Source of the DNA: Dehalococcoidia bacterium | GTDB taxonomy: Bacteria > Chloroflexota > Dehalococcoidia > Dehalococcoidales > W498 | NCBI GenBank assembly: GCA_011170285.1 | Contig: DUEE01000016.1 | Location: forward strand, 62,001 to 126,000 | Direction: 5' to 3' | DNA: 64,000 nt | Shown: one piece after another, positions 3,090 to 11,200 of the stretch | Numbering within the stretch: position 1 is the first letter of the stretch | Layout: each line of letters begins with the position of its first letter | Position numbers and translations under genes: made by a program | Notes under the pieces: generated by a model | What the model was told of the DNA's origin: nothing | Databases searched by the model: none | What the model saw: only the letters and a program-made list of their open reading frames with translations

Positions 3090-3323
3090 ATGCCGATTTA
3101 TGAGTATGTTTGCTCCGTTTGTAATCTAAAGTTCTAGCTGCTACGAATGATAAGTCAGGCTAGTGAGGGAGCTTCCTGCCCTCGCTGCCAAAACAATGCT
3201 AAACGGGTATTCTCCATATTCTCCTCCTTTACCACAGATGAAAGCGGACTAACTACGCATATAGCTGGCAACAACCCCTGTTCTAGCTGCAGTGCCTTTA
3301 GTTGCGATAGCTGCCATCTTTAA
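3090..3323 (+). pseudogene. FmdB-family zinc-ribbon protein with one in-frame TAG
   Basis: The frame from ATG 3090 reads MPIYEYVCSVCNLKF, then TAG (3135-3137), then continues LLRMISQASEGASCPRCQN to a TAA at 3321-3323, 77 codons in all. The first cysteine pair (CSVC) lies before the stop and the second (CPRC) after it, followed by a C-terminal cysteine-rich tail (CSSCSAFSCDSCH). FmdB regulators usually have FELLR here, so the TAG probably replaced GAG by a single base change. A usable Shine-Dalgarno (AGAGG) precedes the ATG and there is no other lesion, so the gene died recently or is read through. Confidence 0.8.
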
Positions 3324-3328
3324 TTAAG

Positions 3329-4043
3329 GTGGGATATGCTAGCCGGATGTCAGCCAAGGTAGATAGCTCCGCCGTTCAGGATGGCTAGCCGCTCTACCAC
3401 CATAGCTTCTCGTTTAATACCAGTGGCTCATGGGCAGTGGTTCAGCAGGGAATGAATGAAGCTAACCGCTATGCCCGCCGCTACCGCTGGCTGGGTGAAG
3501 CAGTCAATAGCTTTGTCAACGAGTCCCACTCTGCCATCCTGTCCCAGGCAAGGGGACAGGCACTAAATCTGGTTGCCAGTGAGAGCAACCCCGCCCGAAC
3601 TACTATCACGGATATAGCCACTAACCAAAAGCCAGAGCATATCTTGTCCGACTTAAAAATTGGTAACTCTGAACCTACCTCCCCATCACTATCAAAGCAC
3701 CAATGACCTCCACACCGATAGCCTAAGTCGGATTCTGTTAAGTACCTATGAGTGCCAGCTGCAGGACTGTGAGCAGTTGCTAGGGCTAAAGGGAGTAGGA
3801 CCCAAGACCATCCGTGCCCTGAGCCTTATTTCCGAGCTGGTCTACGGGGTGGCTCCCAGCTACCGAGACCCCGCCCGCTACAGCTTCACCCACGGCGGTA
3901 AGGATGGCATCCCCTACCCCGTTGACCGCCAGACCTACGACCAGTCAATCGAGCTACTCTCCAAAGCCATCCACAAAACCAAACTTGGTGTTAGAGAGAA
4001 AAATGAGGCGATGGGTAGGTTGGAGAGGGTGAGGATAGAATAG
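3329..4043 (+). pseudogene. DUF763 protein, 5'-truncated and frameshifted
   Basis: Three pieces of one DUF763 protein can be joined. Codons from 3332 give GYASRMSAKVDSSAVQDG, then TAG at 3386. The same frame continues PLYHHSFSFNTSGSWAVVQQ to about 3655. The frame then changes at an A5 run (3655-3659), continuing LVTLNLPPHHYQS and GVGPKTIRALSLISELVYG, then FTHGGKDGIPYPVDRQTYD to the stop at 4043. The conserved helix-hairpin-helix-like GVGPKT and the HGGKDG/PVDR blocks are intact, but the N-terminal half of the usual protein of about 400 residues is missing. One nonsense codon, one probable single-base deletion and a 5' truncation make it non-functional. DUF763 has no assigned function. Confidence 0.8.
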
Positions 4044-4094
4044 TTAAGATTATAGTTTGAATCCTCTTTGGGGAACGGATTGGCTATTTCCAAA

Positions 4095-4124
4095 TCTGAC
4101 AGATGAAAGATAATTTGCTATAAT
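4095..4124 (+). promoter_or_regulatory. Promoter for the PIN-domain gene
   Basis: An extended -10 TGCTATAAT (4116-4124) is preceded 18 bp upstream by a poor -35-like TCTGAC (4095-4100). The predicted transcript would start near 4131 and carry a leader of about 75 nt before the ATG at 4205. Confidence 0.45.
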
Positions 4125-4204
4125 TAGATTGGGCGTATGGAAAGTTTGCTTATTTGGATGTTAAACGCTATAGCTTATTATTTTGAGTAAGGCGGTTTAG
4201 TGGT

Positions 4205-6235
4205 ATGAACGCATTTGAGGATATTACACGAAAAAGGTCTATGCTCCTAACTGCCAGAATGCGCTTCTCTCCTCAGATCCAGCCAGTGAAGGAAACTGCT
4301 ATAGACAAAATAATCGAGCAAATCTTATTTTTTGTGACCCCTACTGAAAAAGGCTTAAGCGTAGAAGAAATACAATATATCTTTTCTTCTGGAAGTGTTG
4401 GTTACGCAATTAGCTCTTCTGATGTGGAGAATTCCTGCAAACGGCTGGGCAGAAAACAAAGAATTGTGCCACAACAAAAGGGAGACCTTGAACTGTATAG
4501 ATTGTCGGAGAAGGCCAGCCGTGAGCTTGGTGGGACGCATCATCGAACCGAAGTCCGCTTTAATTCTGTTGTAAATAGGCTTTTTAAGAATGCGAAAGAA
4601 GGAGCTTCTGCATTTAGGGCTCCTTTTTTGAAACTCCTGTGTATCATCTTTTCGCAACTTGCAGAGGAATATGTCCGCGTAATTAAAGGGGACATTAAGG
4701 CCGACGAGTTCTTATCCTTCCCATTTGTTTCCTCCGCTTTGAAGGAGGTCAAGAAAGAGTTCGTTTCAATTGACGGCTCCCTTTTTGAGAGTGCTACCCT
4801 ATCTTTCTTTCGAGATAGCGATCCAGAATATGATGCCATAAAATGGAATATGGTGCAGAATTATTATATTGCAAAAGCACTTGGCTTAGACCCTGGCGGC
4901 GTTCTCTTGTCCAAGGAAGCATTCGGGCACGCAATATTCTATCTGGATACTAACATCATAATCGAAGCCCTAGAACCAAAAGACAGGTATCATAAGAGCT
5001 TTCTGGCTTTTAATAAAGCATGTAAGCAACTGGGTATTACCCTAAAGGTATGCCAAATTTCACTCGATGAGCTACGAAACTGGCTTGCGTATCAGCGTGA
5101 ACTCATGGAAAAAGTCATTGACCAGATCCCGGATGAGGCAGCATCAGAGGTGAGCTCCATCTTTTACGAAATCTACTGTGAAAAGAAAAGAGCAGGTGAA
5201 GCTATTAGCGTTGGTGAATTCTTTACAAGTTTCGACTCCCCAATGGATCAGCTGAAAGGTCTCTTTGAAGTGGAATTGGAAGACGATATATGGTTTGATG
5301 AAGCAAAAAACAAAGCAGAGGCTATAACCTTTGCTGAAACTTTAAGGTCCAAATTTTTCGCTATGCGTAGGCGTTACAAATCGCGGGGGGCTGCTATTCG
5401 CGATGCTCTGTTGCTCCTTTGGCTTCAAAAATTGAGAGAGGAAAATGGCGATAATATTTGGCTAATTACTACGGATACATCTCTTCCCACATGTCCACCG
5501 CCAAACGCTTCTTCAGGGTCACTTGCTATCACTTTGGATGCAATCTTGCAATGGATTTCGACAATGGTTGTTCCAGAAGATGCAGTAGCTGACTTCACAA
5601 GTATATTTGCAGAGATGCTAAAATACCGACTTCTACCACAGGACAGGATTTTTGATTTGGAGGATTTTCTAATATTCCACGAAATGCACCTGTCATGTAA
5701 GGAACTGCCAGCAGAAGATGTTGAGAACTGCATTCGATATATTAGGGTTAATGCCCCTATGCTTGACCCCTCAGACCCGGCTGATAGAGAAAAGCTTGCT
5801 TACGAAGTATCCAAATTCTTCGCTGATCCCGGGAGGAAATACAAACAGGAAATAGCAAGGCTGGAAGCCAAGAAAGACGAGGTTGAGCAAGAATATAAAA
5901 AGGACCTTGAGGAGCGCGATGGAAAAATTGAAGAACTGGAGAGAAAATTTTCGGAATATTCGGAAAAGACCGGAAAAGAGTCTCTGAGAAGATCGGCACA
6001 GCTTAGGCTAGGCATTACTACAATCGTATTCCTAGTGTTGGAAGGTTTAGTCGTTATTCTTGCCAGCCAGTATGGTGAAGGGTCAAATCTATTCCAAAAA
6101 GTATTGAACTCGTGGTATTTTCTGGTCGGAGGGTTTGCAATAACTATCGCGCTGGGTTGGTTTTTTCTTGGGAAGAAAAGACTCGAAGCTCTTGGCTGGT
6201 CATTCACGAAAATATTTAGGTCTGGAATGTCATAA
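4205..6235 (+). CDS. Large PIN-domain protein with C-terminal coiled coil and two membrane helices
   Basis: A 676-residue protein that I do not recognise as a named family. Residues about 25-110 look like a winged-helix segment. A PIN-like nuclease core begins at FYLDTNIIIEAL (Asp248, Glu254), has an acidic SLDELRNWL block, and ends with WLITTDTSLPT (Asp424), giving the spaced acidic residues expected of a metal-dependent RNase. Charged residues about 540-600 form a coiled coil, followed by two hydrophobic helices (ITTIVFLVLEGLVVILAS and WYFLVGGFAITIALGWFFLG) near the C-terminus. This predicts a membrane-tethered cytoplasmic nuclease. It is a single gene beside two pseudogenes, with no small antitoxin neighbour. 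A defence or stress-RNase role is plausible but is inference. Confidence 0.75.
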   Translation: MNAFEDITRKRSMLLTARMRFSPQIQPVKETAIDKIIEQILFFVTPTEKGLSVEEIQYIFSSGSVGYAISSSDVENSCKRLGRKQRIVPQQKGDLELYRLSEKASRELGGTHHRTEVRFNSVVNRLFKNAKEGASAFRAPFLKLLCIIFSQLAEEYVRVIKGDIKADEFLSFPFVSSALKEVKKEFVSIDGSLFESATLSFFRDSDPEYDAIKWNMVQNYYIAKALGLDPGGVLLSKEAFGHAIFYLDTNIIIEALEPKDRYHKSFLAFNKACKQLGITLKVCQISLDELRNWLAYQRELMEKVIDQIPDEAASEVSSIFYEIYCEKKRAGEAISVGEFFTSFDSPMDQLKGLFEVELEDDIWFDEAKNKAEAITFAETLRSKFFAMRRRYKSRGAAIRDALLLLWLQKLREENGDNIWLITTDTSLPTCPPPNASSGSLAITLDAILQWISTMVVPEDAVADFTSIFAEMLKYRLLPQDRIFDLEDFLIFHEMHLSCKELPAEDVENCIRYIRVNAPMLDPSDPADREKLAYEVSKFFADPGRKYKQEIARLEAKKDEVEQEYKKDLEERDGKIEELERKFSEYSEKTGKESLRRSAQLRLGITTIVFLVLEGLVVILASQYGEGSNLFQKVLNSWYFLVGGFAITIALGWFFLGKKRLEALGWSFTKIFRSGMS

Positions 6236-6337
6236 CCATGAGATAACCTCCCTCTCTTGTTAAGCCTACGACAAATCAAACCCCCGCAAAAGTTATGTTT
6301 TTCCCTTATTGAAGAAGCCTTTTGCTTTATTGATATA

Positions 6338-7051
6338 TCAAGACATTACTTTACTTCTGCTAAACCATAAATAACCCCCAGCCACCCCACCCAAGATTAT
6401 AGCCAGTCCTGCGGTTATACCAGCACAGAACATGGTCGCATCATACCAGAAGCCCCGGGGGAAGAGCATTATCAGGTAGTCTTTGGTCGGGTCAAGCTGC
6501 CATAGCTCATTGGTGAAGCTGATGAGGTGAAACTGGTAAAATAGACGGTCAAAACCTAATAGCGTGCCTAATCCTATAGCCAGCATCAAGGCAAGCGTAA
6601 TACCACCTCCACCAACCACCCCCCGCGTCAGCCACCGCCAATATCTTCTCTTGCGCCATAAGAGGCAAACCCCGACATAAGCTAGAGCATAAATCAGCGT
6701 GCCCAATAAAACCCAATAATCTAGCCAAATTAGACTTTTAACATCCTTGAGGTGAATTACCTCTTTCTCATTAAATAGCTCAAACGGCTCGCCATCCTTC
6801 ACCGCCGTAAGGCTGATATACTCCTCATTAGAGTTAAAGTAACTAATTAGCTCGGAGGCTGCTTTCTCTAGCTCTGAATCAGCCAAACCGGTAGTCCGGC
6901 TGACATTGTATTTACTAAAGCCATAGTTATACAACCAGTGGCTATTTACTGCCCAGCCGATGCTTACTGAGAGTAACAGAATGGGTAGGCAGAGCGTAAA
7001 AACCCACTTAGTGGCAATGCCAAGAATTTTCAACCTTTTATATATCCCCAC
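6338..7051 (-). CDS. Integral membrane protein, TIGR01906/DUF1461 family
   Basis: A 237-residue protein with an N-terminal membrane helix (WVFTLCLPILLLSVSIGWAV), an extracytoplasmic segment with HLKDVKSLI (residues about 35-105), then helices at LGTLIYALAYVGVCLLW, GGITLALMLAIGLGTLLG and FCAGITAGLAIILGGVAGGY. The layout and the HxxDVK motif fit DUF1461 membrane proteins, whose biochemical role is unknown. Members in Gram-positives include the Lit-type lipoprotein acyltransferase, but this copy is not close enough by eye to assign that activity. It stands alone on the minus strand, with repeat-rich DNA on its 5' side. Confidence 0.75.
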   Translation of the reverse strand: MGIYKRLKILGIATKWVFTLCLPILLLSVSIGWAVNSHWLYNYGFSKYNVSRTTGLADSELEKAASELISYFNSNEEYISLTAVKDGEPFELFNEKEVIHLKDVKSLIWLDYWVLLGTLIYALAYVGVCLLWRKRRYWRWLTRGVVGGGGITLALMLAIGLGTLLGFDRLFYQFHLISFTNELWQLDPTKDYLIMLFPRGFWYDATMFCAGITAGLAIILGGVAGGYLWFSRSKVMS

Positions 7052-7177: not shown

Positions 7178-7490
7178 AATTATATGTAAGAGAGGCTCCG
7201 CTCACCAGAGGCGACTCTGTCGACCTCTCTTTGACTCTCCTTACGATATCTCCTCCTTCAAAGGAGAGAGGGGAAGATATCTGACATGGGGGTTTCCAGG
7301 TTGTCTAATAAGTCCAAAAACCACGATTTTTTGAAGCTAAGCATTTTCCCGCTCAAAGCTACAGTAGTAGCTTTTTGGACAGCCTATTTCGCCCCTCTTA
7401 AACTCCCCAAATACTATTCTGAGAAGAGTGAGTACAACAAACCTGGTAAGGCAAAAACCTTTTAATTGAGGCTGCTTATTGAGGGTAGTT

Positions 7491-7551
7491 TGAAGGGGCG
7501 TTAGCCCCTTCAAAAATAATTACACCCCCTTCCCTTAATAAGGGAAGGGGG
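7491..7551. repeat. Dispersed palindromic repeat, copy 2 (two hairpins)
   Basis: Two consecutive palindromes: a 9-bp hairpin TGAAGGGGC/GCCCCTTCA (7491-7512) and the core CCCCCTTCCCTTA/TAAGGGAAGGGGG (7525-7551, 13-bp arms around one base). The core is followed by GTCAGGGGGATAGGT, which also follows copy 4. No gene is visible in the rest of 7052-7684 apart from the dnaE promoter. Confidence 0.85.
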
Positions 7552-7648
7552 TCAGGGGGATAGGTCACCATATTAAATAATGGATAAAAACCTTATCTAT
7601 TTCGGTGGTAAATCCAACCTTGAAAGAATACGCAAGAAACCAGCCCTG

Positions 7649-7657
7649 TGTTATAAT
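7649..7657 (+). promoter_or_regulatory. Extended -10 promoter for dnaE
   Basis: TGTTATAAT, an extended -10 with the consensus TATAAT at 7652-7657, lies 27 bp upstream of the ATG at 7685. No good -35 is visible at 16-18 bp. Transcription would start near 7664, after the upstream in-frame ATG at 7580, which supports 7685 as the real dnaE start. Confidence 0.6.
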
Positions 7658-7684
7658 TATTTAAATGCTGAGTTAGAAGGTGCC

Positions 7685-10600
7685 ATGTTTACCCACCTCC
7701 ATGTCCATACCGAATATAGCCTGCTTGATGGCATGTGCCGTATCCCCCAACTGGTTGCCAGAGCCAAAGAGCTGGGGATGGATAGCCTGGCGATAACTGA
7801 CCATGGTGTTATGTATGGTGTTATGGAGTTTTACTTGGCAGCCAAGGAAGCCGGCATAAAGCCTATTATCGGCTGCGAGGTTTATGTCGCTCAAAACAGT
7901 CGCTTCGACCGTAATGCCAGCGATAGGAAGAACTACCACCTTACTCTACTAGCTAAAAATCAGACCGGATACCGGAATCTAATTCAGCTCACCACCAAAG
8001 CACACCTTGAGGGTTTTTATTATAAGCCAAGGATGGATAAGGAGCTTTTTGAGCAATATCACCATGGTCTTATTGCTCTCTCTGGCTGCGTTGGCGGTGA
8101 GGTTCCCCATCTCATCTTAGAAGGGCACCTTCAGGAAGCAAAACAGGCTGCCTTGTGGTATAAGCAAACATTTGGCGATTTCTACCTGGAAATACAGAGA
8201 CATCCTACCCCTGAGCTGGAGCAGATAAACCAGCATCTTATCCCTATGAGTAGTGAGCTGGATATACCACTGGTGGCTACCAATGATGTCCACTATGTCA
8301 ACCGGGAGGATGTTTCTGCTCATGACCTGCTGCTGTGTATTGGCACTAACTCTTCTATCCATGATGAGAAGAGAATGAGAATGGCAGGTGACTTCTTCTA
8401 CCTAAGAAGCCCACAGGAGATGGCAGAGCTATTCAAAGATATCCCTCAAGCGCTGGAGAGCACCGAGCTTGTTGCTGAAATGTGCAACCTAAAGATTGAG
8501 TTTGGGCGTCTCCACCTACCCGAGATAGACCTATCTGAAGGCAAAACGGCTGACCAGTTCCTAACTGAACTGTGTCATCAGGGTTTATATCAACACTATC
8601 CCCAGCCTACCCCAGAAGTACAGGAGCGACTCAACCATGAACTGGAGGTAATAAGACAGACTCAGTTCGCCAACTACTTCCTTGTTGTCTGGGATATCAT
8701 CTCCTTCGCCAAGGAACACAATATTCTGTTCGGGGTTAGAGGTAGTGCTGCTGCTAGTATTGTCCTGCACTGCCTGGGTATTACCGAGGTTGATCCTGTT
8801 CAAAATAAGCTGGTCTTTGAGCGTTTTCTTAATGTGGAGCGCAAGGAGATGCCAGATATAGATTTGGATTTTGAAGACAACCGCCGTGATGAGGTTATCT
8901 CTTATGTATCACGGAAATACGGACACGACCATGTCGCCCAGATAATTACTTTCGGCACATTAGGCGCCAGGGCAGCCATCAGGGATGTGGGTCGGGCCCT
9001 AGGTATGCCCTATAGTGATGTTGACCGTGTAGCCAAGCTGGTGCCATTTGCCCCAAGTATGACCCTAGAAAGAGCCCTGAGCGAGAACAATGAACTGCAC
9101 AATATTTACTATGATGATGCCACAGTTCGCAATCTGGTTGACTCAGCCCGAAGAATAGAGGGTATTGCTCGTCATGCCAGCACTCATGCCGCCGGCATAG
9201 TCATATCTAAAGAGCCTCTCACCAGGTATGTCCCGCTACAGCAGGTAAGCAAGGGTAACGGCGAGACTATGGTTATGACCCAGTTCACTATGGATGATAT
9301 TGCCCGGATTGGACTACTAAAGATGGACTTCCTTGGATTAGGCAACCTCACCATCCTGGGTAAGGCCAAGGAGATTATCCTCGATAACTGTGGCATTAAT
9401 ATTAACCTGCACCATATTCCTATGGCTGATGCCAAGACCTTTGAGCTACTTTCCTCAGGGGAAACGGCTGGCGTGTTTCAGTTAGAGGGGGCTGGCATGC
9501 GCCGCTACATCAAGGAGCTTAAACCAACCTCCTTCAGCGATATTGCGGCTATGATTGCCCTGTATCGCCCTGGTCCTATGGAGCACATCCCTACCTTCAT
9601 TAAAGCTAAGCACGGCATTGAGCCAATCCGCTACCCCCACCCCGCACTATCAAACCTCCTTGAGGAAACCTATGGGGTGATTGTATATCAGGAACAGGTG
9701 CTATTTATTGTTCAGGCTCTCGCTGGCTACAGCCTGGGGGAGGCTGACATCTTCCGCAAGGCAATGGGTAAGAAGATTCCAGAGGTTATGAAGAAAGAAA
9801 GGCGTAACTTTGTTGCTAAAGCCAGGAAGAATGGATACTCGGCTGAGGTAGCCGCTGAAGTCTTCAATCTAATTGAACCCTTCGCTGGCTATGCCTTCAA
9901 TAAGGCTCATAGTGTAAGTTATGCTCTTATTGCCTATCAAACCGCTTACCTCAAGGCAAACTATCCGGTAGAATATATGACTTCTTTCCTACTTACCAAT
10001 GCTGACCAGTCAGAGAAAGTAGCTACTGCGGTTGCTGAATGCCGCCGCCTGGGCATTACCGTGATGCCACCTGACATAAACCGCAGTCAAGCCAGCTTCT
10101 CTATAGAAAAGGACGCTAAAGATAATACTTCAGCCATTCGCTTTGGGCTAGCCGATATTAAGAATGTTGGACCAGGGGCTATAGAGTCTATTATTACCGA
10201 GCGAACTAAAGGAGGCGAATTCGAATCCATAGAGGACTTATGCCGTCGTTGTGACCTACGCGGTATGAACAGGCGAGTGCTAGAAAGCCTGATTAAGGCT
10301 GGAGCCCTGGACTCCTTGGGTAGCCGTGGCACTTTACTCCATAACACCAATCGTATCCTTTCCCTAGCTCAGCGGGAGCAGCGCCTCCGAGAAACAGGGC
10401 AGTCTACTATGTTCGATCTGTGGGGTGAGGTAACACCAGCTCCTCTACCTAGCCTTGAACTGGCACCCTCCGATATTTCTGATAGGGAGAAGGGTACTTG
10501 GGAGAGAGAATTGATGGGGGTTAGTCTTTCCGAGCCCCCTTTCAGCCCAACAGCCAAGGGGACAGATGCAAAAAACATTTTCTGCGGTCAGATTGATGCC

Positions 10601-11200
10601 GAATTGGTGGGGCAAAACATTGTTGTCGCTGGCAGGGTCGCTTCGGTTCGTTACCTCTTCACTAGGGGTAATAAAGCCTTCGCCAGTACCATTCTTACAG
10701 ATTTTAGTGGCGAGGTTGAGATTATGGTCTGGCCCAAGGTCTATACCAGTAGTAAAGACCTGTGGCAGGAAGGTAATGAATTAGTGGTTGAGGGTAAGGT
10801 AAGGCTAAGAGATGACCGAGTTCAGCTAAACTGTGACAATGTGGGCCGTTACCAGTCACTAGCCCAAGGTGAAGAGGTTGTTACATCTCAACCCAGTGAA
10901 GCCGCGGTGGTAGCTGAAGAGACCACGGCCTACACGACACCAGCCAAGGGTCGCCGACTGGTAATAAGCATCAGTCAGACCGGTGATGAGGCTAGTGATA
11001 TAGCCTATCTACATAAACTGATTGATACCCTCGGAGAATTCCCGGGACAGGACGAGGTGAACCTCTGCGTTATCAATGAAGAAAAGGTTATTAACCTCAA
11101 GCTGTCCAATGTGTATACTAACTATTGCCCAGAACTTTATCAGCGGCTAGTAGAGTTGGTAGGAGAAGAGGGGCTGAGGCTAGAACCCCTTGCTCCATAG
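7685..11200 (+). CDS. dnaE: DNA polymerase III alpha subunit
   Basis: The replicative polymerase, 1171 residues from ATG 7685, the normal DnaE length. An N-terminal PHP domain begins MFTHLHVHTEYSLLDG and keeps its histidines (ITDHGVMYGV). The polymerase active site PDIDLDFEDNRRDE contributes Asp391, Asp393 and Asp395. The helix-hairpin-helix and OB-fold regions follow (VVAGRVASVRYLFTRG, then EVEIMVWPKVY). ATG 7685 has AGAAGG 5 bp upstream and a well-placed extended -10. The in-frame ATG at 7580 would add 35 atypical residues and lies upstream of that promoter. There is no intein and no obvious missing catalytic residue. The RadC-family gene follows after 32 bp and may be co-transcribed. Confidence 0.97.
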   Translation: MFTHLHVHTEYSLLDGMCRIPQLVARAKELGMDSLAITDHGVMYGVMEFYLAAKEAGIKPIIGCEVYVAQNSRFDRNASDRKNYHLTLLAKNQTGYRNLIQLTTKAHLEGFYYKPRMDKELFEQYHHGLIALSGCVGGEVPHLILEGHLQEAKQAALWYKQTFGDFYLEIQRHPTPELEQINQHLIPMSSELDIPLVATNDVHYVNREDVSAHDLLLCIGTNSSIHDEKRMRMAGDFFYLRSPQEMAELFKDIPQALESTELVAEMCNLKIEFGRLHLPEIDLSEGKTADQFLTELCHQGLYQHYPQPTPEVQERLNHELEVIRQTQFANYFLVVWDIISFAKEHNILFGVRGSAAASIVLHCLGITEVDPVQNKLVFERFLNVERKEMPDIDLDFEDNRRDEVISYVSRKYGHDHVAQIITFGTLGARAAIRDVGRALGMPYSDVDRVAKLVPFAPSMTLERALSENNELHNIYYDDATVRNLVDSARRIEGIARHASTHAAGIVISKEPLTRYVPLQQVSKGNGETMVMTQFTMDDIARIGLLKMDFLGLGNLTILGKAKEIILDNCGININLHHIPMADAKTFELLSSGETAGVFQLEGAGMRRYIKELKPTSFSDIAAMIALYRPGPMEHIPTFIKAKHGIEPIRYPHPALSNLLEETYGVIVYQEQVLFIVQALAGYSLGEADIFRKAMGKKIPEVMKKERRNFVAKARKNGYSAEVAAEVFNLIEPFAGYAFNKAHSVSYALIAYQTAYLKANYPVEYMTSFLLTNADQSEKVATAVAECRRLGITVMPPDINRSQASFSIEKDAKDNTSAIRFGLADIKNVGPGAIESIITERTKGGEFESIEDLCRRCDLRGMNRRVLESLIKAGALDSLGSRGTLLHNTNRILSLAQREQRLRETGQSTMFDLWGEVTPAPLPSLELAPSDISDREKGTWERELMGVSLSEPPFSPTAKGTDAKNIFCGQIDAELVGQNIVVAGRVASVRYLFTRGNKAFASTILTDFSGEVEIMVWPKVYTSSKDLWQEGNELVVEGKVRLRDDRVQLNCDNVGRYQSLAQGEEVVTSQPSEAAVVAEETTAYTTPAKGRRLVISISQTGDEASDIAYLHKLIDTLGEFPGQDEVNLCVINEEKVINLKLSNVYTNYCPELYQRLVELVGEEGLRLEPLAP

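Follow-up and report, generated by a model that had tools for sequence, protein, structure and literature searches.

A Putative Membrane-Anchored PIN Ribonuclease of a Rare, Horizontally Spread Family with a Possible Role in Phage Defense

A One-Gene Candidate Anti-Phage Effector

The window analyzed here, a stretch of 64,000 nucleotides from a Dehalococcoidia bacterium (contig DUEE01000016.1, positions 62,001 to 126,000), carries at positions 4205–6235 of its forward strand a gene whose product we are inclined, on balance, to regard as a horizontally spread, one-gene anti-phage effector, namely a membrane-anchored PIN ribonuclease. A role as a single-protein defense against phages is probable because some of its relatives adjoin restriction and other anti-virus genes. 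No published description of such an architecture was found in the titles and abstract beginnings searched, a corpus with no preprints and few subscription papers.

Organization of the Gene and Its Product

The gene is a genuine ORF of 676 amino acids with an ATG start and no internal stop, as the initial annotation had proposed, and is present as a single copy in the source genome (1.38 Mb, 27 contigs, 88% complete). A chance ORF is ruled out by its relatives and by the dN/dS ratio given below. The following features were delineated, in positions of the window:

4096..4124, +, possible own promoter of sigma-70 type (11/12 match, TG ahead of the -10)
4205..6235, +, whole gene for the membrane-tethered PIN protein (ORF and Pfam)
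4310..4516, +, winged-helix-like domain, about residues 36–104 (local pLDDT and weak profile matches)
4532..4924, +, helical linker, about residues 110–240 (alignment)
4940..5476, +, probable PIN core, residues 246–424 (PF16289, E 4.4e-6)
4946..4948, +, codon of D248, first PIN acid (identical 5/5 and 6/6)
5069..5071, +, codon of E289, second PIN acid (identical 5/5 and 6/6)
5402..5404, +, codon of D400, third PIN acid (identical 5/5 and 6/6)
5474..5476, +, codon of D424, fourth PIN acid (identical 5/5 and 6/6)
5594..5842, +, post-PIN region, residues 464–546 (alignment conservation)
5828..6007, +, long charged helix, about residues 542–601 (predicted; length differs among members)
6008..6064, +, membrane helix 1, residues 602–620 (Kyte-Doolittle 2.5)
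6116..6172, +, membrane helix 2, residues 638–656 (Kyte-Doolittle 1.8)
6173..6232, +, tail KKRLEALGW-FTKIF (kept in closer members)

Promoter matches in the region are at chance level, with four found for 4.2 expected. No terminator-like site was found at 3900–6500, and a tRNA was the only match in an Rfam scan.

The N-terminal winged helix proposed in the initial annotation agrees with a helix (residues 71–83) and two strands (87–92 and 95–100) that form a block with a pLDDT of 77–85 in an otherwise poor AlphaFold2 model, and with profile matches that are not significant (linker histone, E 0.47; MCM4_WHD, E 0.06 in one relative). Ahead of the PIN core, the linker keeps the motif FF...KWNxxQNYYxxKxLGxDP, and in most members the post-PIN region carries the motif DF...LPxEDxE...DRE...FFxDPxRKY. 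Residues 539–601 are 54% charged and predicted to be helical. This segment had been annotated as a coiled coil, a claim that was not borne out, as the heptad pattern in the charged helix preceding the membrane segments is not significant (p 0.74). Both C-terminal membrane helices were recovered by hydropathy. Because positive charges flank this hairpin on either side, the sequence suggests that both of its ends are cytoplasmic.

Assignment of the PIN Core and Conservation of Four Acidic Residues

Residues 246–424 match PIN_12 (PF16289) with 27.6 bits, for a curated cut-off of 32, and the protein matches PIN (PF01850) with an E of 0.015. The PIN scores of those other members that match are likewise below the cut-off (L005, E 3e-4; the member of genome G217, E 9e-4; L011, E 0.024), and L003 has no Pfam match to PIN at E 0.1 or better. 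AlphaFold2, run on three rows (the window protein, L002, and L005), yielded a pLDDT of 48.8 over the full length and 39.0 over the core, with no usable PIN model, and a profile search of solved structures returned nothing significant (best E 0.33). Because structure prediction failed, the assignment relies on the conserved acids and on profile matches under the thresholds, from which the window protein likely contains a PIN domain.

NCBIfam, PHROGs, and PADLOC do not recognize the protein over its full length and give only weak partial matches. With PADLOC 2.0.0, these are to PbeC (1.3e-5) within the charged helix, at residues 528–592, and to LmuB (0.002) over residues 350–593; no known anti-phage system in this collection matches most of the protein.

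Between residues 240 and 460, 4 of 35 acidic positions are invariant in an alignment of five members, and these are D248, E289, D400, and D424; over the whole alignment the count is 11 of 102. The sixth member (L040), with 18% identity, keeps the same four residues. The chance of this pattern is about 2e-5, a value valid only had all four residues been named in advance: D248 and D424 were so named in the initial annotation, and E289 and D400 were picked post hoc from the alignments. The spacing of the four acids fits a PIN active site whose third segment is longer than usual. Loss of metal-binding residues in homologs was looked for as evidence against the initial annotation, and no such loss was seen among the six members.

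A Rare Family

Five other members were identified. The closest, L002, comes from a metagenome-assembled genome (MAG) of the Desulfobacteraceae (G451) and is 85% identical to the window protein across its full length. L003/L006 (genome G135) and L011 (genome G944) are 41% and 39% identical, respectively, and L005, from a contig of a viral collection, is 28–29% identical. The L040 protein (genome G217), the most divergent, aligns over the PIN part with an hhalign probability of 97.1 (E 6.8e-11), and its N- and C-terminal parts are not reliably alignable to the other members. In all six, the PIN core is followed toward the C-terminus by hydrophobic helices. Four members have two clear membrane helices and L040 has three; L005 has one clear helix and one weak (second 1.36).

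The family is rare in every set surveyed; the sets overlap, and the threshold was E 1e-3 or 1e-5 depending on the survey. Wide single-copy conservation with housekeeping genes, an observation that would have spoken against the initial annotation, was not seen: among 61 relatives (E 1e-3), only the window itself carries the gene. At E 1e-5, we found the family in 2 of 400 genomes of the phylum sample, 2 of 158 of the class of G135, 1 of 395 of the phylum of G451, 1 of 85 of the class of G451, and 3 of 393 of the window's class, including one distant cousin fused to a SIR2-like domain. The widest profile, applied to the phylum of G451 (E 1e-3), retrieved 3 of 395: the member already identified there, one cousin fused to SIR2, and a short relic of the tail. 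Protein searches of plasmids and phages gave no match. Searches of viral contigs returned the contig of L005 alone, with one search empty, and a single-protein scan of genome contigs, which reaches close relatives only, returned L002 alone. We did not count as members the distant, SIR2-fused proteins of G1038 and G673 or the tail relic of G643. The latter is a 38-aa ORF (L043, 1504–1620) that contains only the final hydrophobic segment and the tail.

Neighborhoods of the PIN Genes

The genes next to the PIN gene differ among the six loci. In three members, a strong defense gene lies on the same strand at a distance of at most 141 bp; the set is small and includes one locus from a virus collection. 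At L005, the order is hsdM, a small ORF, hsdS, and hsdR, followed after 31 bp by the PIN gene on the same strand; Mu-like phage genes (Mu-transpos_C and Phage_Mu_F) adjoin the PIN gene on the other strand. At L040, a gene for a type IIG-like restriction-methylase of 1076 aa precedes the PIN gene by 141 bp, also on the same strand. At L002, nucleotidyltransferase and schlafen AlbA_2 genes lie upstream of the PIN gene, and 139 bp downstream is a gene for a helicase-PLD protein (MkoA, 2.4e-55; MkoC, 8.5e-39), which we liken to the Mokosh layout. Also upstream of this PIN gene, short ORFs at 7322–7653 look, by eye, similar to the terminal part of the transketolase gene located at 3323–5344; they are perhaps a duplication left by the insertion of the genes between.

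At L006, a RiboL-PSP HEPN gene without a PADLOC match is found 1.3 kb from the PIN gene on the other strand, in surroundings with Replic_Relax and actin-like genes and, by eye, phage-tail genes. The L011 copy has lost its first residues, cut by an IS630-like transposase gene located at its start, and the housekeeping gene RsfS lies about 2.6 kb further. No defense neighbor was found for the window copy. One of ten nearby proteins in the window matches PADLOC (1e-5), apparently through a generic receiver domain, and neither the lit-like gene nor the DUF763 pieces that flank the PIN gene have a PADLOC match.

Horizontal Transfer and the Insertion Site

Sequence comparison indicates that the PIN gene is mobile and horizontally spread. 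DnaE of the window is 84% identical to that of the same-genus genome G001 and 44% identical to that of the Desulfobacteraceae MAG carrying L002, the source of the closest PIN homolog. (A second DnaE-like polymerase of the window's genome, G000:C16:29830-32859, is 38% identical to the window DnaE encoded at 7580–11200.) Within the genus, the search covered G001 alone, and no PIN gene turned up there. At the corresponding site, G001 is about 2.1 kb shorter than the window, and the left and right neighbors are conserved with 74–87% DNA identity. Three further features describe this site:

4036..6353, no strand, stretch without counterpart at the same G001 site (about 232 unmatched bases in G001)
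3437..4043, +, decayed DUF763 gene beside the insertion (two overlapping frames, profile positions 154–319 only)
3090..3323, +, decayed zinc-ribbon gene (in-frame stop)

DNA homology between the window and L002 starts about 45 bp ahead of the ATG and ends just short of the stop codon, and no repeats flanking the inserted stretch were found. The two PIN genes differ with a dS of 0.21 and a dN/dS of 0.36; the gene is therefore kept under selection. A binning error is ruled out on the window side by synteny with G001 and on the MAG side, within its class only, by the aconitase of the MAG contig, which in this within-class comparison is 84% identical to that of one genome, the next reaching at most 58%.

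The two dead genes noted early on near the PIN gene are the DUF763 pieces and the zinc-ribbon ORF with its in-frame stop. In G001, which lacks the PIN gene, DUF763 is a relic at this site too. The decay is therefore unconnected with the insertion, and the neighboring dead genes probably have no share in the proposed function. Near the position of the single broken zinc-ribbon copy of the window, G001 carries intact zinc-ribbon ORFs, with three zinc-ribbon-like ORFs in succession (L025, 1988–2705), two of which were tested by Pfam. To the right of the insertion, the window encodes at 6338–7051 (−) a homolog of Lit-type lipoprotein transacylases (PF07314, E 1.6e-36; TIGR01906), and this gene is syntenic in G001. 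The segment 7100–7570 holds short intergenic sequences of a dispersed repeat family with about 30 other sites in the same genome (28–154 bases, 73–100% identity); these sequences also occur at several G001 sites.

Distant Cousins Fused to SIR2-Like Domains

In the proteins of G1038 and G673, a SIR2-like domain precedes the PIN-like region. SIR2_2 is matched with an E of 1.9e-20 in G1038, and in G673 with a sub-cut-off E of 9e-5 that covers the end of the domain only. The PIN-like region of the cousins was aligned by hhalign with probabilities of 79.8 (94 columns) and 95.1 (252 columns). By PADLOC, the SIR2 part of G1038 matches the LmuA and ThsA models. Neither protein has a strong C-terminal membrane helix. 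In the G673 alignment, the fourth PIN acid is not kept and the second perhaps not; in G1038, the later acids are unaligned and, by eye, changed. Because these cousins lose some of the PIN acids, a module of this kind can function even where PIN catalysis is lost, and their effector is more likely the SIR2 part. These data suggest that the PIN-bearing module may serve as a reusable part in defense. After the SIR2-fused gene of G673, a 239-aa protein is encoded (L044, 2510–3229) that resembles by eye the N-terminus of BREX PglZ and has no Pfam match.

Proposed Mode of Action and Alternatives

We propose that the C-terminal helical hairpin would anchor the protein in the inner membrane, with the winged-helix and PIN parts facing the cytoplasm, and that the PIN core would be an intact metal-dependent ribonuclease. 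In a healthy cell, this core may be silenced by the N-terminal and helical parts of the same chain, or else by a partner, for example a restriction system. Upon infection, it would be released and cut cellular or phage RNA, and phage production would stop; tRNA offers a precedent for the putative RNA target. The initial annotation had offered either defense or envelope-stress RNA cleavage. The former gained support from the neighborhoods of some relatives and from the mobility of the gene, and the latter had none of its own beyond the membrane helices.

In a variant that we consider possible but doubtful, the protein would be a second-line guard: the linked restriction enzyme would silence the membrane PIN nuclease, and a phage disabling this enzyme would release it, in a PrrC-like manner. 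PrrC itself, an HEPN RNase encoded in an hsdMSR neighborhood and silenced by the restriction-modification enzyme (as given in the accessible part of PMC3710099), is the precedent, and the positions of L005 and L040 directly after type I and type IIG restriction genes, respectively, agree with it. However, no adjacent restriction gene was seen for the other four members, the window's included, and solitary copies of this kind would have to respond to another trigger or to a distant restriction system. PrrC is, moreover, an ABC-ATPase fused to HEPN, which is a different fold. The protein might also act on the host's own RNA, as a housekeeping or stress RNase that would be the PIN counterpart of membrane-anchored RNA-decay enzymes. 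The membrane anchor, the purifying selection, and the possible own promoter are all compatible with such a function, but it is disfavored by a distribution as sparse as that observed (1/61, 2/400, and 1/395), by movement between distant lineages, and by the differing neighbors at the six loci, and we judge it unlikely.

Equally improbable in our view is a catalytically dead PIN domain used at the membrane for sensing or scaffolding. The SIR2-fused cousins, with their altered acids, provide a parallel, but all six members keep the four acids, and in the five-member alignment no other acid of the core is invariant. Least credible of all is a VapC-type toxin of a toxin-antitoxin pair, which the initial annotation had already set aside for want of a small partner. 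A PIN core with four acids is what such a toxin would have, but not 676 residues, extra domains, and membrane helices. The intergenic gaps leave no partner in the window (161 bp separate the PIN gene from the DUF763 relic upstream, and 102 bp from the lit-like gene downstream) or at L040 (141 and 26 bp), and at L005 only 31 bp lie upstream and an opposite-strand gene overlaps downstream. L002 and L006 do have room upstream of the PIN gene, with short ORFs present.

Beyond the preferred reading as a membrane-anchored anti-phage ribonuclease, we tentatively entertain a broader one. The six proteins may represent an undescribed family of one-gene membrane PIN ribonucleases, mobile as stand-alone genes or attached to defense loci, which would form a PIN counterpart of PrrC, killing or stalling the cell when first-line restriction fails, and whose module would be coupled to SIR2 in the cousins. 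A membrane-anchored, mobile PIN protein found behind two kinds of restriction system would raise the question of whether PIN enzymes guard restriction as PrrC does. A second question would be the reason for tying such a nuclease to the membrane.

Comparison with Known Systems

Like PIN_12 (PF16289) and the VapC-type PIN proteins (PF01850), the window protein has a probable PIN core with four spaced acids; it differs from both in adding a winged helix, a post-PIN region, a charged helix, and a membrane hairpin, and in having no antitoxin. In the ThsA/LmuA-type SIR2 defense proteins, the comparison concerns the SIR2-like domain that precedes the PIN-like region of the two distant cousins. The window protein has no Pfam match to SIR2, and the cousins, in contrast to the window family, do not keep all four PIN acids.

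Recent work has shown that single- and two-gene PIN systems act in phage defense without behaving as toxin-antitoxin pairs, with DS-3 and DS-5 as examples (accessible part of PMC13092281). DS-3, identified with DefensePredictor, is likewise a single PIN protein without antitoxin; we compared it by its description only. Mutation of its catalytic residues abolishes its phage defense, and its authors suggest auto-inhibition. Unlike in the window protein, the PIN domain of DS-3 is described as split between the N- and C-terminus, and the accessible part of the report mentions no membrane anchor (PMC13092281). DS-5 is similarly a PIN nuclease of phage defense that is likely not a toxin-antitoxin pair, but it consists of two proteins, the second with a DUF5830 and an AcrIF4-like domain (accessible part of PMC13092281).

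The anticodon nucleases PrrC and RloC are, like the proposed effector, large RNase effectors in phage defense (accessible parts of PMC3710099 and PMC2610378). They differ in combining HEPN with an ABC-ATPase, and no membrane anchor is mentioned in the accessible parts of these two sources; no Pfam match to ABC-ATPase or HEPN was found in the window protein or in three scanned members. PrrC is linked to type I restriction genes, according to the accessible part of PMC3710099, and the PIN family is linked to restriction genes in two of its six members.
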